DNA of 21,070 nt from a virus, in the IMG/VR virus record IMGVR_UViG_3300043448_000879, positions 1-21,070 of that record; one strand, 5' to 3'. The translations under genes and the position numbers were made by a program. The notes below the pieces were generated by a model that was not told the origin of the DNA, made no database searches, and saw only the letters and a program-made list of their open reading frames with translations. Shown piece by piece: positions 4,078 through 9,373 of this stretch (positions are counted from its first letter, which is position 1; each line of letters opens with the position of its first letter).

Positions 4078-5775
4078 TTATCTATAATCCCACATATAAG
4101 ATCTATCGCCATATTCATCCACATTCCATACTTCTAATGGATTTTGTTCATTTTTTGCTCCTGCAAATATCCACCTATCTCCAGTTTCTTCATCAATAGT
4201 GACGCTAAAATCATCCAATCCATCTGCAATAAAACCAAATGGAGACATATCTTGCTCAATTTGATTCTTTTGCTCCTCATAGATTCTTTTACGAACATCA
4301 TTGTCTGTCATTTCTTTAAAATAATCTTGAGCAACTAACCAAGAAAAAATAACCAGACACATTGCCAAATCATCATTACATCCTTCTTCTGCCTCAAAGG
4401 AGTTGTGTTTTTGTGCAAATGTTGTTAATTCTGAAATAATATCATAATCTACCGTCAGTAATTTATCATCTTCCATTAAGGTTTTTAAGTTGGAACATCC
4501 CAACTTTTTAACCGCTGCAGTTGTTCTTACACCAAGTTGCGATTTCTTACCACTAAATCCAGATCCTACAATTTGTCCAGCACGACCTCTCATAGCACAC
4601 ATAAGGACATTATCATATTCTAAATCAAAGTGAAGAATATTTGCAACTTGATCACCAATATCATTAACTTCAACTAATAACCAAGAATTATTATATCCTT
4701 TTGCCACTTCGTGAATAACACTTGGAAATAACATTGGTTTGATCTCATTATTTCTATATTTTGCCACTACTTTATATGGAAAGTTTGTAATATCAAAAAC
4801 AATGAATGCTGAGTAATCATTACCGAGTCCGCGAGCAACATCTACTGTTATGAGATAATTATGTTCTTCTTTTGGATTTTCATAAATGTCAAGACCTGCA
4901 TTCCTTTTTATTGGGTCTTCATAAACTAAATTTCTTAGTTTTGCTGGATTGATAAGAGTATTAACAGATCCTAAGAACTCACATTCAAACTCAACTTTGA
5001 ACTGTTGTTCGGATGTGTTTGCAATCGTCTGCTCCTTCCAGGCAGCGTCTCTACCAGGCACTTCAGACCAATGGACATCAGTGGGTACATATTCGTTTTT
5101 GCCGCGCTCTGCGTCATGCCACATACGGTAGAAGTGATTCATACCGCGTGGTGTAGATACAATAATTACCTTCGTGCTTTGTCCAGAAGAAATAGTAGGA
5201 TAAACAGAGGCAAAGAAGTCATCAGCAATGTGATTCGGGATGAAAGCGAACTCGTCAAGAAAGATGACATTATAAGATCCGCCTCGGACAGCAGATGACG
5301 AAGTAGAGTTAGATGAAATTTTGGAGCCATTTTCTAATTCCAAAGATCCTTTGTTCCATGATATAATACCTTGTTGCATCCACCTGGGCAAGTTCTCATA
5401 AGCAAGTTGCAATCTTCCAAGTAGGTCTCTTGCGGTTGATGCTTTGTTCGCTAGAATAGCTATATTAACGTTGTCATTGAAGACAGCATAATGTAACAAA
5501 TATGAAACACAAGTTGTAGATTTACCTGTCTGACGAGGCATCTTACAAATATTAAATCTGTTGTCGTGGAAATTTTGAATTAGTTTCTCCTGGAACGGAT
5601 ACATCTCAAAAGGAACTAGACCGTGATCAAGAGACACGATCTTAATATAATTTCTAGCAAAATATACAGGATCTTCTTTACACTTTAAGAACTCAATAAT
5701 TTGTTCTTCTGTAAATTGAATCTGAGTATTTGCCTTCTTAAGGTTTGGATTTCCCAAATAAACATTATCAGACAT
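4078..5775 (-). CDS. 17: Terminase large subunit gp17 (packaging ATPase and nuclease)
   Basis: Motor of headful DNA packaging: it cuts concatemeric DNA and pumps it through the gp20 portal using ATP. Length is 565 residues (T4 610). The N-terminal ATPase has Walker A MPRQTGKST at residues 79-87 (Lys85), Walker B VIFLDEF at residues 170-176 (Asp174, Glu175) and a coupling motif VSTPRG near residue 207. The C-terminal RNase H-like nuclease shows the acidic triad positions: Asp312 in ITVDVARG, Glu369 in LLVEVND, and Asp468 or Asp469 in CNDDLAM. All key residues are present, so it should be active. It follows the 438-aa gene by 6 bp, with its ribosome site (AGTAGG) overlapping that gene's end. 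Unlike T4, three genes separate it from gp16. Confidence 0.97.
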   Translation of the reverse strand: MSDNVYLGNPNLKKANTQIQFTEEQIIEFLKCKEDPVYFARNYIKIVSLDHGLVPFEMYPFQEKLIQNFHDNRFNICKMPRQTGKSTTCVSYLLHYAVFNDNVNIAILANKASTARDLLGRLQLAYENLPRWMQQGIISWNKGSLELENGSKISSNSTSSSAVRGGSYNVIFLDEFAFIPNHIADDFFASVYPTISSGQSTKVIIVSTPRGMNHFYRMWHDAERGKNEYVPTDVHWSEVPGRDAAWKEQTIANTSEQQFKVEFECEFLGSVNTLINPAKLRNLVYEDPIKRNAGLDIYENPKEEHNYLITVDVARGLGNDYSAFIVFDITNFPYKVVAKYRNNEIKPMLFPSVIHEVAKGYNNSWLLVEVNDIGDQVANILHFDLEYDNVLMCAMRGRAGQIVGSGFSGKKSQLGVRTTAAVKKLGCSNLKTLMEDDKLLTVDYDIISELTTFAQKHNSFEAEEGCNDDLAMCLVIFSWLVAQDYFKEMTDNDVRKRIYEEQKNQIEQDMSPFGFIADGLDDFSVTIDEETGDRWIFAGAKNEQNPLEVWNVDEYGDRSYMWDYR

Positions 5776-5781
5776 AATAAA

Positions 5782-7098
5782 TTACCTACTAATTTCTTCC
5801 CAGTCCATTGCAGCAACAACAGTATCATCAGCACTATCAGAAGCAATCACAAGTGTGAGTTCATAAGGAGTTGAAGTCAATCCGTCTCTTTCCAACTGAA
5901 ACTTGAAGAGTGCTTCCTTGAGAATATCAACTTGAGATGCTCCTTGATTTGAAGCATTGAAAAATCCACTCGCAAGTATTCTTCCATCAGTATAAGAAGT
6001 TCCAGTAATGTTATATTCAACAGCACTATCAACACCAGCACTTACCCAACTTCCATCAGTAGTAGTTCCAGATGCTCTAATTTGCCAATTAAAGTTTCCA
6101 GTACTAATTGGCATAATTGAAAGTGCGGTAAGAATTACAATCGCATCTAAACGATTTGGTGATGTTTTGAGACGCAAACCGATTACTGGATAAAATGTTC
6201 CTGCAGTTCCTAATGTTCTTGGAGTATTGATTGGAATACCGATTGCCTGTTGTAATCCACGAAGTTCATAACCACCCTCCGAAATTACAGTAGAACAAAC
6301 TTGTTTGAGTGTGCTTGAACTTGTGGTTATACCTGTATTTGCAATTTCATATCTTAGAGGTAATGATGCAGTTGTAATATAAGTCGATTGAATTACATTT
6401 GCGTGATGGAATGAATGACAATGAACAAATACACCATCAATCACAAAACCAACTCTTACAGTTCCAAGACCTAACCATTCAATATCAGTCCATAGAATTT
6501 GTGCTTTGGTTGGATCCAAAGTAATTCCAGAAACACCAGTTCCATCTAATTTATCAATATTCCATTCTGTCTGTGGGACTCTTGTTTCTGTTGCTAATGA
6601 TAAACTTCTTTCTACAAAACCAATTGAGGTGCTTCCAATTCCTGCAATTTCAAAGTAAATTCCATTATCTGCACCAAAATATCCTACTCGTTGTCTTAGA
6701 TTTGCTTTTGGTGGTGCAGGAACAAATGTATTCAACACCAATAATGATTTTCCTGGTTGATATGAAAAAGTTTTGGTAGTTTCTCTAATTACAGAACAAC
6801 CAGCAGTGGTTCCAATACCAATATTAATTAATCCTTGTGTAGTTACAAATCCTACAGTAGAACCAGTACCAACAATTAAACTTGTCCACAGATTATTGTC
6901 TCTGTATCTGTGTGAAGAGTCAAAAAGTGTGAGTGGATTTGATACTCTTGTTCTTCCAAAAGCATCAGAATTTGTGCTAACTGGAAATCTATTGTATTCA
7001 TCAACAACTCTACCATCTCTGGTTGCAATTAGAGGAACCTCAAAGAGAGTTCTCTCCTGATTTAGGAAATCTTGTTCATTCTTATTCCACTGGGCCAT
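5782..7098 (-). CDS. Phage structural protein of 438 residues between gp16 and gp17
   Basis: Probable virion protein of a kind seen in marine T4-like phages; its exact place in the particle is not known to me. The N-terminal third carries TRDGRVVDEYNRFPVS (about residues 26-41) and DAFGRTRVSNPLTLFDS. The central part has LRQRVGYFGADNGIYFEI (about residues 134-151), ILWTDIEWLGLGTVRVGFV (about residues 203-221) and SLPLRYEIANTG. This alternating strand pattern suggests a jelly-roll or lectin-like beta sandwich, a common surface or receptor-binding fold; that is inference. The remaining C-terminal part has a smooth beta-rich composition. It starts 3 bp after the 104-aa gene, with GGAG upstream of the ATG, and ends 6 bp before gp17, so it is co-transcribed with packaging genes. 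A head or tail decoration role is possible. Confidence 0.75.
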   Translation of the reverse strand: MAQWNKNEQDFLNQERTLFEVPLIATRDGRVVDEYNRFPVSTNSDAFGRTRVSNPLTLFDSSHRYRDNNLWTSLIVGTGSTVGFVTTQGLINIGIGTTAGCSVIRETTKTFSYQPGKSLLVLNTFVPAPPKANLRQRVGYFGADNGIYFEIAGIGSTSIGFVERSLSLATETRVPQTEWNIDKLDGTGVSGITLDPTKAQILWTDIEWLGLGTVRVGFVIDGVFVHCHSFHHANVIQSTYITTASLPLRYEIANTGITTSSSTLKQVCSTVISEGGYELRGLQQAIGIPINTPRTLGTAGTFYPVIGLRLKTSPNRLDAIVILTALSIMPISTGNFNWQIRASGTTTDGSWVSAGVDSAVEYNITGTSYTDGRILASGFFNASNQGASQVDILKEALFKFQLERDGLTSTPYELTLVIASDSADDTVVAAMDWEEISR

Positions 7099-7101
7099 GA
7101 A

Positions 7102-7416
7102 TCAATCACTCCAAGTTAAACTTTCTGGTCTGTATCTTTGTGCGTTTTTAATTTTAATAGAATCTGGTGATATTGGATAAATGTTATGAACAATTGCTCC
7201 AGGATATTCTCCCTGAAGTTGCTCTGCCAAAGAATTTTTATCTATCATCTTACCCTCAACTTCCATACGATATAATCTACCCTGCCAAACTACATCAGCA
7301 AGAAAAGATTCACCCACTGGTTGTGATTGGGATTCAGATCCATTAATATAAAGATTTCCATTGAAATCTCCAGAAATGTTGACGCTTTCAGAAATAAACT
7401 GTTTAAAGGATTTCAT
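7102..7416 (-). CDS. Small protein with a T4-style capsid-targeting leader (probable internal head protein)
   Basis: 104 residues. The N-terminus MKSFKQFISES closely resembles the capsid-targeting sequence of T4 internal protein III (MKTYQEFIAE). That 10-residue leader directs proteins into the prohead core and is removed by protease gp21 after a Leu/Ile-X-Glu motif. Here Ile8-Ser9-Glu10 is followed by Ser11, which fits the cleavage rule. The mature part would be about 94 residues: NISGDFNGNLYING, then a probable beta domain with ADVVWQGRLYRMEVEGKM and YPGAIVHNIYPI. There are no cysteines and no membrane segment. It starts 1 nt after the 506-aa gene and is followed 3 nt later by the 438-aa gene. 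I recall similar small ORFs in marine T4-like phages, but none with a proven function. Packaging into the capsid is inference from the leader. Confidence 0.75.
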   Translation of the reverse strand: MKSFKQFISESVNISGDFNGNLYINGSESQSQPVGESFLADVVWQGRLYRMEVEGKMIDKNSLAEQLQGEYPGAIVHNIYPISPDSIKIKNAQRYRPESLTWSD

Positions 7417-7417
7417 T

Positions 7418-8938
7418 TTAGTTACAGTTCCAACGACGGAGTGCTTTGTTGATTCTTGAATCTGGATCTCTGGATGTCTTTGCTGAAGTTAGTTTAGACT
7501 TCATACCTTTCATCCTACGACAAAAAGATGCACGACGCTTTGCTCTTTTACCCTTTGGTTTCTTTTCAGTAACTGCAGTCTGAAGTTTTGAACCTGGATT
7601 TTCACGACGATAAGCATTAACTGCTTTCTGACTCAAACCATCAGTTTTATCTTTACGATTTACTGATTGCCAATCTTCAGATAATCCAAAATCTGATCTC
7701 CAATTAGAGAACTCTTCTGCCTTAACGCAACGATTATAAGTTTTTCCAAATAATTTTTGAGTTCCCTTTTTCTTATATCCTGGCCAGCACTTCTTTGCCT
7801 CACTCATCTCACCACTATCAACATAATCTGCAGCAGAATCTAGGTAATCTGCTGCTTTAGTAATCTTTGACTGCACCCATGCTTCAATATTTCCCTCACC
7901 TTTCATTTTTTTACGAAGTCTTTTTGCTGCAGCGATAATTGTAGATAATTCGGAGCGGGCCATCGAATGTTCATGATCATAAGATTCTGGAAAATTGCCA
8001 GGATGGACAGTTGCAATATTATATTTCAATTGATTTGTGGTTAAAGCAGAAGGTCTGGAGAACATATCCCAATATTTTCCACCATACTTGCACTCATTTC
8101 TAGTTTCATCTTTTTGACACTTTGGACAATATCTAACCATTTCCATTGCTTCAGACTTAGTTCCCCAATTTGCAGCACCAACTTTACGACACTTGACCAG
8201 TGCTCCTGATGCATATGCACTTGGCCAAACATCATATCTTGATTTTACTTTATGGTAGCAAGCATCTTTAGTTCCACTACCTTTACCTGGTTTATCTTTA
8301 ACTTCTTGTAAGTCTAATTCTTCTTTCATTTTTTTCTTTGAATCTGTTGAGACATAAGTTGGTTTTGCCGCACCTGTTTTTTCTTGTTGTCCAGGATCTG
8401 CTGCTTTTTTTCGTCTTGCAGCAGATCGTCTTTGTGCTGGTGTCATGCTCGCTCTTTTTTCGGAAGAGACACACTTAGGAACTCCTTCTCCAGGTTCATC
8501 ACTTGCACAAGTTCCACCAGTTACAACATTAACCCAACCAGATTTACCATCTTTTGATTTAGATTTTCCAAACCAATCACGAAGACCTTCTTCATTCATT
8601 TTTACATCTTTGAACTTCTTATGTTCTTTTTTAGCAGACGCTTCCATTTTTTTAAGACGAGTATAATAATCTGGAATTTCATCTAAATGTTGAAGAGCAA
8701 TCTCCATCGCCAATTTATGGTCTTTGGTGTGCTCATGCTCAATTGGTTCTCCCATATCAAGTTGTTTTTGAATGAAAGAAACATCAAGACGATGCTTCTT
8801 AGCAATCTGTTCAACAGTCTTGTATGGTTTTAATTGTTCTTTCAATTTTTTCTTTCTACCTTGACAGTGAGCTCTTTGCGAAAATCCTTTTGGATTGTCA
8901 CAATCAATTGATCTTTTATATTTGTCAGACCAACTCAT
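7418..8938 (-). CDS. Modular Cys- and Lys-rich protein of unknown function (DUF5661- and DUF5872-like modules)
   Basis: 506 residues, very basic, built as a string of short modules joined by acidic linkers. In order: SIDCDNPKGFSQRAHCQGRK (residues 10-29); a helical segment with EHEHTKDH near 68-74, resembling DUF5661; GLRDWFGKS to PTYVSTDSK (118-200), resembling DUF5872; GTKDACYHKVKSRYDVWPSA to KVGAANWG (222-259); a CPKC zinc-ribbon-like motif with a further Cys (271-283); DHEHSMARSE and a long helical region (321-375); KCWPGYKKKGTQKLFGKTY (383-401); and a C-terminal RRASFCRRMKGM to INKALRRWNC (468-505). I recall these modules, in varied order, in other tailed-phage proteins. The DUF names are from memory. 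No enzymatic motif is evident. It lies 12 bp after gp16 and 1 bp before the capsid-leader gene. A DNA-associated or packaged head protein is a reasonable guess. Confidence 0.75.
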   Translation of the reverse strand: MSWSDKYKRSIDCDNPKGFSQRAHCQGRKKKLKEQLKPYKTVEQIAKKHRLDVSFIQKQLDMGEPIEHEHTKDHKLAMEIALQHLDEIPDYYTRLKKMEASAKKEHKKFKDVKMNEEGLRDWFGKSKSKDGKSGWVNVVTGGTCASDEPGEGVPKCVSSEKRASMTPAQRRSAARRKKAADPGQQEKTGAAKPTYVSTDSKKKMKEELDLQEVKDKPGKGSGTKDACYHKVKSRYDVWPSAYASGALVKCRKVGAANWGTKSEAMEMVRYCPKCQKDETRNECKYGGKYWDMFSRPSALTTNQLKYNIATVHPGNFPESYDHEHSMARSELSTIIAAAKRLRKKMKGEGNIEAWVQSKITKAADYLDSAADYVDSGEMSEAKKCWPGYKKKGTQKLFGKTYNRCVKAEEFSNWRSDFGLSEDWQSVNRKDKTDGLSQKAVNAYRRENPGSKLQTAVTEKKPKGKRAKRRASFCRRMKGMKSKLTSAKTSRDPDSRINKALRRWNCN

Positions 8939-8950
8939 TAGAAATAAGAA

Positions 8951-9373
8951 TTACTCTTTATTATTTAGAAAACCTTGTTTGAGTAGTTTTGAGAGTTCTG
9001 ATGTCGATCCAACAAAGACTGCATTATTAGTTACATTGTTAGTTGTTTTTGTAGATTCTTCTTCAACATCTTTGAGTTTTTTCTGCAAATCAATTAATTT
9101 ATCAGTTACATCTCCAACTGATTTTATTAATTGTCCGGCAACTTCATATGCTCTTGGAGAACCACCTTCACCAGCAAGTTCCATAATTCCATTAATCGCT
9201 TCCTGTCCTTTTTCAATTAATGAATATAAATTTGCACGAGTATATTCATAATCTTTTTGAATATCATCAGATTTTGTTGGAACAATATCTAAAGATGATT
9301 CTACTTTTTCCACTTCAACTAAATTGCTTTCAATATTCAAAGCACTATCCAAATTTTCAAATTTATTTTTCAT
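8951..9373 (-). CDS. 16: Terminase small subunit gp16
   Basis: Small terminase: forms an oligomeric ring that recognises phage DNA and stimulates the gp17 ATPase and cutting. 140 residues (T4 164). The central part is strongly helical: YTRANLYSLIEKGQEAINGI near residues 44-63, then MELAGEGGSPRAYEVAGQLI near residues 63-82, and VTDKLIDLQKKLKDVEEEST, a coiled-coil-like helix. This is the oligomerisation core that is conserved in T4 gp16. The N-terminal 35 residues are acidic and low in complexity. The C-terminus ends in a Asn/Thr-rich and then a hydrophobic/basic tail. It follows gp15 by 6 bp, as in T4 order 15-16. The Shine-Dalgarno is weak, so translation may depend on coupling from gp15. Confidence 0.9.
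   Translation of the reverse strand: MKNKFENLDSALNIESNLVEVEKVESSLDIVPTKSDDIQKDYEYTRANLYSLIEKGQEAINGIMELAGEGGSPRAYEVAGQLIKSVGDVTDKLIDLQKKLKDVEEESTKTTNNVTNNAVFVGSTSELSKLLKQGFLNNKE

Follow-up and report, generated by a model that had tools for sequence, protein, structure and literature searches.

The closest described systems are the internal head proteins of bacteriophage T4, which are typically basic, although this property does not define them. The ten-residue leader of these proteins has been dissected by mutagenesis, with targeting depending mainly on residues 4 and 7 and processing on residues 8 and 10, and the protease gp21 cleaves after the motif L/I-X-E (reviewed in PMC9026906). T4 internal proteins act as inhibitors of type IV restriction enzymes (PMC12373910), and proteins tagged in the same way are therefore good candidates for acting on the host as soon as infection begins; the candidates described here concern phages of ocean and freshwater cyanobacteria. 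In the virion proteomes of cyanophages, NMNAT, SAM hydrolase and kinases have been found, and the authors left open whether these enzymes are packaged or contaminating (PMC10665884, PMC9602691).

Gene order between the terminase genes

The window analysed here is a 21-kb virus record of 21,070 nucleotides (IMGVR_UViG_3300043448_000879) with the gene set of a T4-like cyanophage, as judged from PHROG and phage-record matches. The genes of interest lie on the minus strand, in the following order:

8951-9373, minus strand: terS, terminase small subunit (gp16-like; phrog_445, E=6e-55)
7418-8938, minus strand: 506-residue mosaic protein, directly upstream of the 104-residue gene (Pfam DUF5661 and DUF6321 modules)
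7102-7416, minus strand, stop codon at 7102-7104: 104-residue protein of the PHROG 1742 family (phrog_1742, E=6e-41)
5782-7098, minus strand: 438-residue virion structural protein, downstream of the 104-residue gene (PHROG 1645; phrog_1645, E=7e-160)
4078-5775, minus strand: terL, terminase large subunit (gp17-like; phrog_2, E=3e-75)

The 104-residue gene thus lies between the terminase genes, as the original prediction had stated, and shares that interval with the 506- and 438-residue genes. A single base separates the stop codon of the mosaic gene from the ATG of the 104-residue gene, so that the two are probably co-translated. The S-SZBM1 protein at the same position as the 438-residue protein (gp086) has been detected in the virion by mass spectrometry. 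In many cyanophages the 104-residue gene is conserved and keeps its position between terS and terL; some cyanophages, such as S-SM1, lack it.

The leader of the 104-residue protein

On the minus strand, positions 7416 to 7384 read ATG AAA TCC TTT AAA CAG TTT ATT TCT GAA AGC and encode MKSFKQFISE/S, where the slash marks the predicted cut. Two features can be placed in this segment:

7387-7416, minus strand: capsid-targeting-type leader MKSFKQFISE, ten codons (translation, family conservation and recurrence, including T4 ipII and ipIII)
7384-7386, minus strand: Ser11, predicted first residue after gp21-type cleavage, ISE/S (L/I-X-E motif of gp21 and residue preference at position 11)

The agreement in length and pattern with the T4 leader, which had been pointed out from these letters, is confirmed by the T4 genome, where MKTYQEFIAE heads both ipII and ipIII. 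Among 42 distinct homologues M1, K2, F7 and E10 are invariant, only F or Y occurs at position 4 and only I, L or M at position 8, and these conserved positions are those that serve targeting (4 and 7) and processing (8 and 10) in T4. Homologues devoid of the leader or of Glu10 had been named beforehand as the finding that would speak against a targeting role; the alignment of the 42 keeps both. The leader is also retained in 80/80 IMG/VR homologues (80 loci kept of 495). Conservation in the family runs past residue 10, the leader not being sharply set off within it.

Synonymous variation is free at most leader positions, which indicates conservation at the protein level and rules out a DNA-level constraint on the leader. 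Within the family the gene always opens with ATG AAA, as might be seen if the recurring N-terminus arose by chance or had another cause, for instance a preference of late genes for certain translation starts. This explanation is very improbable, since the remaining leader codons vary synonymously while residues 4, 7, 8 and 10 are kept, and since away from ORF starts the proteomes lack the motif, which is also almost missing from a reversed control (see below).

Recurrence of the leader on unrelated proteins

A DNA pattern encoding MK.[FY]..[FY][hydrophobic].E was scanned against 18 phage genomes (3.56 Mb), with the reversed pattern as control, and gave 37 matches versus 1 for the control. The matches in T4 were ipII, ipIII and gp61.1. 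At the protein level, the motif K.[FY]..[FY][ILVMF].E is found six times at ORF starts of S-SRM01 and S-SZBM1 and nowhere else in their 126,563 residues; this start-versus-elsewhere count, together with the reversed control, rules out a chance origin of the leader. In the 21-kb window the leader heads one ORF, and the search for it on other ORFs of a full genome, proposed along with the original prediction, finds it in complete relatives, for example on four ORFs of S-SRM01. Two of the 18 genomes, S-PM2 and Melnitz, gave no pattern match, though both encode the protease. Variant leaders with Gln at position 8 (MKTFQ.FQES and MKSFQQFQED), missed by the pattern, are present in S-SRM01 at 83142-84158, 82315-83145 and 138614-138784.

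Altogether, at least 237 distinct leader ORFs were collected from IMG/VR contigs and phage genomes, the narrow patterns used for IMG/VR making this a sample biased to MK[ST]F. The mature parts fall into at least 96 groups, 73 of them singletons, and among the leader ORFs listed these 96 groups have no detectable similarity to each other behind the leader. Positions left free in the search are still biased, with K at 5 and Q or E at 6, and position 11, which lies outside the search pattern, is A, S or G in 58% of the 238 leader ORFs listed. The Pfam names found behind leaders comprise cytidylyltransferase, S-AdoMet lyase, zeta toxin, HD_4, HicA, RMF, GNAT, HNH, DPBB and HiPIP, many of the leader-bearing proteins resembling enzymes or toxins.

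Several individual cases deserve a mention of their own. T4 gp61.1 (54 residues; NC_000866 18966-19130, minus strand) starts with MKTFKEFIKE, close to the internal-protein leader, and by this likeness may possibly be an unrecognised T4 head protein. A SAM lyase family (PF23780) is found behind the leader at loci L131 (1530, minus strand) and L136 (2227, minus strand), with similar ORFs in L182, L200 and L206; these proteins are candidate packaged anti-restriction enzymes. The leader proteins of L128/L209 (216 residues, no Pfam match), L175 (3736) and L268 (11047, minus strand) appear ADP-ribosyltransferase-like by eye, with HGT- or HYT-like motifs. A 67-residue HiPIP-like iron-sulphur protein carries the leader in L084 (47292-47492), L134 (1612, minus strand) and L172 (5222, minus strand). 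Five consecutive ORFs, each headed by a leader, are seen in L265 (9422-5915, minus strand) and L316 (6905-2265, minus strand).

Leader-bearing proteins in virion proteomes

The virion proteome of S-CREM2 has been published (PMC10665884) and allows a comparison between leader and virion content. The strict motif, which had been fixed beforehand as the DNA pattern and here additionally admits the GTG start codon of gp14, occurs in 3 of the 219 S-CREM2 CDS, namely SAM hydrolase gp6, APH-like kinase gp14 and cytidylyltransferase gp154, and 3/3 were detected in the virion (Fisher P=0.013 relative to all CDS and 0.0022 relative to non-structural CDS). A relaxed regular expression adds gp13 and gp136, both detected (5/5, P=3e-5); it was written after those N-termini had been viewed, and the strict test alone is therefore used as evidence. 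The three leader enzymes and the virion Cas9 of S-CREM2 (OR473000) are located at L367 3837-5081, 10579-12846 and 7704-10313, and at L326 20609-21469. The Cas9 found in the S-CREM2 virion has a leader-like LRFASFMAE/A at residues 17-25.

S-SM1, S-SCSM1 and S-CREM2 each encode an NMNAT/cytidylyltransferase with the leader, S-SZBM1 one with a shorter version, MRFRQFIIE, and the enzyme was detected by mass spectrometry in all four phages. A kinase of S-CRM01, reported in virions as cited in PMC10665884, has an open frame that begins with MISFDQFLSE. For strict leader ORFs, detection in virions amounts to 1 of 2 in S-SCSM1 and 0 of 2 in S-SZBM1.

The homologue of the 104-residue protein in S-SZBM1 (gp085, S-SZBM1_191) is absent from the virion list of 30 proteins, with six usable tryptic peptides expected from its mature form; the locus number there equals 276 minus the RefSeq gp number, a relation that holds for the capsid protein, for the cytidylyltransferase and for several protein lengths. 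In S-SCSM1 the homologue is unlabelled, with two usable peptides expected, and both its neighbours are labelled as virion proteins. Since these two proteomes list 30 and 45 proteins, respectively, non-detection is weak evidence. It agrees, as does the location of the gene in the terminase cluster, with a protein whose N-terminus merely resembles a leader and which stays inside the cell, where it helps in assembly or packaging as a product of the terminase operon. Such a role is unlikely in view of the invariance at exactly the positions used for targeting and processing in T4, and of the S-CREM2 virion enzymes that are marked by the same leader.

The mature protein and its family

The match to PHROG 1742 is full-length (E=6e-41; residues 1-103 of the protein, 1-106 of the 108 profile positions), and the family has matches in 136 phage records, all of them cyanophages. 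The closest isolate found to carry the protein is Synechococcus phage S-SRM01, with 79% identity. The mature 94-residue part had been described as having no known function, in line with PHROG 1742, a family of unknown function. A Pfam search with the 104-residue protein returned no match, a PDB sequence search with the family profile returned nothing credible, and a search for distant relatives from the S-SZBM1 copy returned three loci only; no recognisable catalytic domain is seen in the protein. The mature part is acidic, with 8 K/R versus 12 D/E.

In the AlphaFold2 model residues 1-33 have low confidence, and residues 37-81, with a pLDDT of about 90, are modelled confidently as a domain:

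7174-7308, minus strand: predicted beta-beta-alpha-beta domain, residues 37-81 of the 104-residue protein (AlphaFold2 model)

In both models T7 Gp2 comes out as the top PDB fold match (E 0.07-0.08, with a probability of 1.00 and a TM-score over target of 0.66), and YkzG (epsilon) is also near the top. The match to Gp2 may be taken as a weak lead, and not as evidence for function. If followed, the mature domain would be an early binder of the host RNA polymerase, like T7 Gp2 or YkzG, delivered with the DNA; the recurrence of Gp2 as best match in two separate models and the high place of YkzG favour it, and T4 Alt is a precedent of a packaged protein that acts on RNA polymerase (PMC9026906). With E values of 0.07-0.08, no sequence match to any solved structure and a type of small beta-beta-alpha-beta fold that is common, we nevertheless regard this function as quite unlikely.

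The upstream mosaic protein

Of the 506 residues of the mosaic protein, 504 are covered by matches to the portions behind the leader in ORFs from other phages, and as a control only 11 of 319 ORFs of the window and S-SRM01 match the leader-ORF mature set at all. One border between modules coincides with a motif of the cleavage type:

7799-7807, minus strand: putative cleavage-type site MSE380/AKKCWPGY at a module border of the mosaic protein (alignment with the L186 leader ORF)

Here the leader ORF of L186, MKTYQEFISE/AKKCWPGY, aligns with MSE380/AKKCWPGY of the mosaic, and from this alignment we infer a site of the cleavage type at the border. The mosaic relatives found at the same place in S-SCSM1 (gp029) and S-CREM2 (gp137) are virion proteins by mass spectrometry. 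The 506-residue protein is probably an internal head protein or polyprotein, and its sequence would possibly make it an internal polyprotein with L/I/M-X-E sites at module borders. The 506- and 104-residue genes probably constitute an internal-head-protein locus, the mosaic possibly being cut into pieces.

The domain of the 104-residue protein also occurs within the adjacent mosaics of S-CAM9 (profile E=8e-12), S-B05 and S-SCSM1. Embedded copies of this beta-beta-alpha-beta domain in DUF6321-type mosaics encoded next door are located at L095 1909-3999, L094 2716-3999 and L087 4448-6001. The presence of the domain in a neighbouring virion protein is one of the observations that fit a genuine leader on a component of the core or of assembly, either a minor scaffold protein or a constituent of the head, rather than on an injected effector. 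This component would act in prohead assembly and then stay in the head or leave after cleavage; degradation of a core protein after cleavage would account for the missing peptides, and both the fixed, conserved place between terS and terL in many cyanophages and a degree of conservation that is high for an anti-defence protein point in the same direction. S-SM1, on the other side, does without the gene, so that it is dispensable for head assembly in general, and the resemblance of many other leader proteins to enzymes or toxins argues for a different purpose. Taken together, the structural role is tenable, though we would not expect it to be the correct one.

The prohead protease

A gp21-type protease is annotated in S-SRM01; the window ends before the protease region. 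Peptidase_S77 was found in 11 of 17 records, several of the remaining ones being fragments. The presumed propeptide ends of the major capsid proteins, placed by position in the cyanophages, are SFLSE/A in S-SRM01, GILTE/A in S-SZBM1, GMLNE/V in S-PM2 and GLLTE/A in S-CREM2, compared with SFLTE/A in T4 gp23. These ends carry the cleavage signature seen in the leader, and on the protease side the picture is consistent with leader cleavage.

Proposed role of the 104-residue protein

With good confidence we regard the 104-residue protein as an internal head protein that is targeted to the capsid of a T4-like cyanophage and whose leader docks, is cut by a gp21-type protease and leaves the mature part in the head. 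The leader is very probably a capsid-targeting propeptide removed by the protease, and the protein is probably internal to the head. By analogy with T4, the ten-residue leader would dock the precursor into the prohead core and the gp21-type prohead protease would cut after Glu10 (ISE/S). The 94-residue mature protein, predicted to consist of a flexible arm of about 25 residues and the beta-beta-alpha-beta domain, would stay in the head with the DNA and, again as in T4, would probably enter the host at infection, where the domain may be an effector aimed at a host target; alternatively it may be a head constituent. This assignment is supported by the leader being conserved where T4 needs it, by the many unrelated proteins that share it, T4 ipII and ipIII among them, and by its association with the virion content of S-CREM2; the NMNAT, the S-CRM01 kinase, the capsid propeptide ends and the virion detection of related mosaic neighbours add to this. 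The absence from the S-SZBM1 virion list, the missing label in S-SCSM1, the acidic mature part, the conservation past residue 10 and the lack of matches in S-PM2 and Melnitz count against it. The suggestion of a packaged effector or core protein, put forward in the original prediction, is thus well founded, the strongest and independent support being that leader ORFs are non-structural virion enzymes in S-CREM2, with the NMNAT occurring in four proteomes.

On a wider scale, T4-like phages of cyanobacteria and of other hosts in the environment are likely to share a single portable ten-residue capsid-loading tag, with which they package a large and varied arsenal. This arsenal would include, with similar likelihood, NMNAT, SAM lyase, kinases, ADP-ribosyltransferase-like proteins, zeta-type kinases, HD hydrolases, HicA, RMF, HiPIP and the 104-residue family. 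If true, the tag predicts virion cargo from sequence and is a cheap predictor for other phages, and it may foretell what related viruses carry and probably inject. The leader likewise offers a sequence-level reason to view NMNAT, SAM hydrolase and kinases as cargo and not as contaminants, and moves the 104-residue family from unknown to a testable head protein.

Comparison with known systems

A search of the openly accessible literature returned no report of the leader in cyanophages. The kind of protein is known from T4; in the literature searched there is no report of the 104-residue member or of the range of cargo apparently marked by the tag in cyanophages. The predicted fold has as its best PDB match the T7 RNA polymerase inhibitor Gp2, with YkzG also high, at E >0.05 and with no sequence similarity, and is a lead only. 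The virion-associated enzymes of cyanophages (NMNAT/cytidylyltransferase, SAM hydrolase and APH-like kinase) bear the same leader and were detected by mass spectrometry, and differ from the 104-residue protein in being enzymes, no catalytic domain being recognisable in the latter. Within PHROG 1742 the protein is a clear member, and reading its N-terminus as a leader is, in the literature searched, new to a family previously left with no assigned function. The T4 internal proteins differ in that the mature part described here is unrelated to them and acidic, is encoded at a fixed place in the terminase cluster, comes from the cyanophage family Kyanoviridae and is a candidate virion protein. 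With ipI, ipII and ipIII the protein shares the ten-residue leader, the aromatic residue 4, F7, I/L8, E10 and the L/I-X-E cleavage signature, and, as in T4, this leader is common to otherwise unrelated proteins and a gp21-type protease is present in relatives of the phage.
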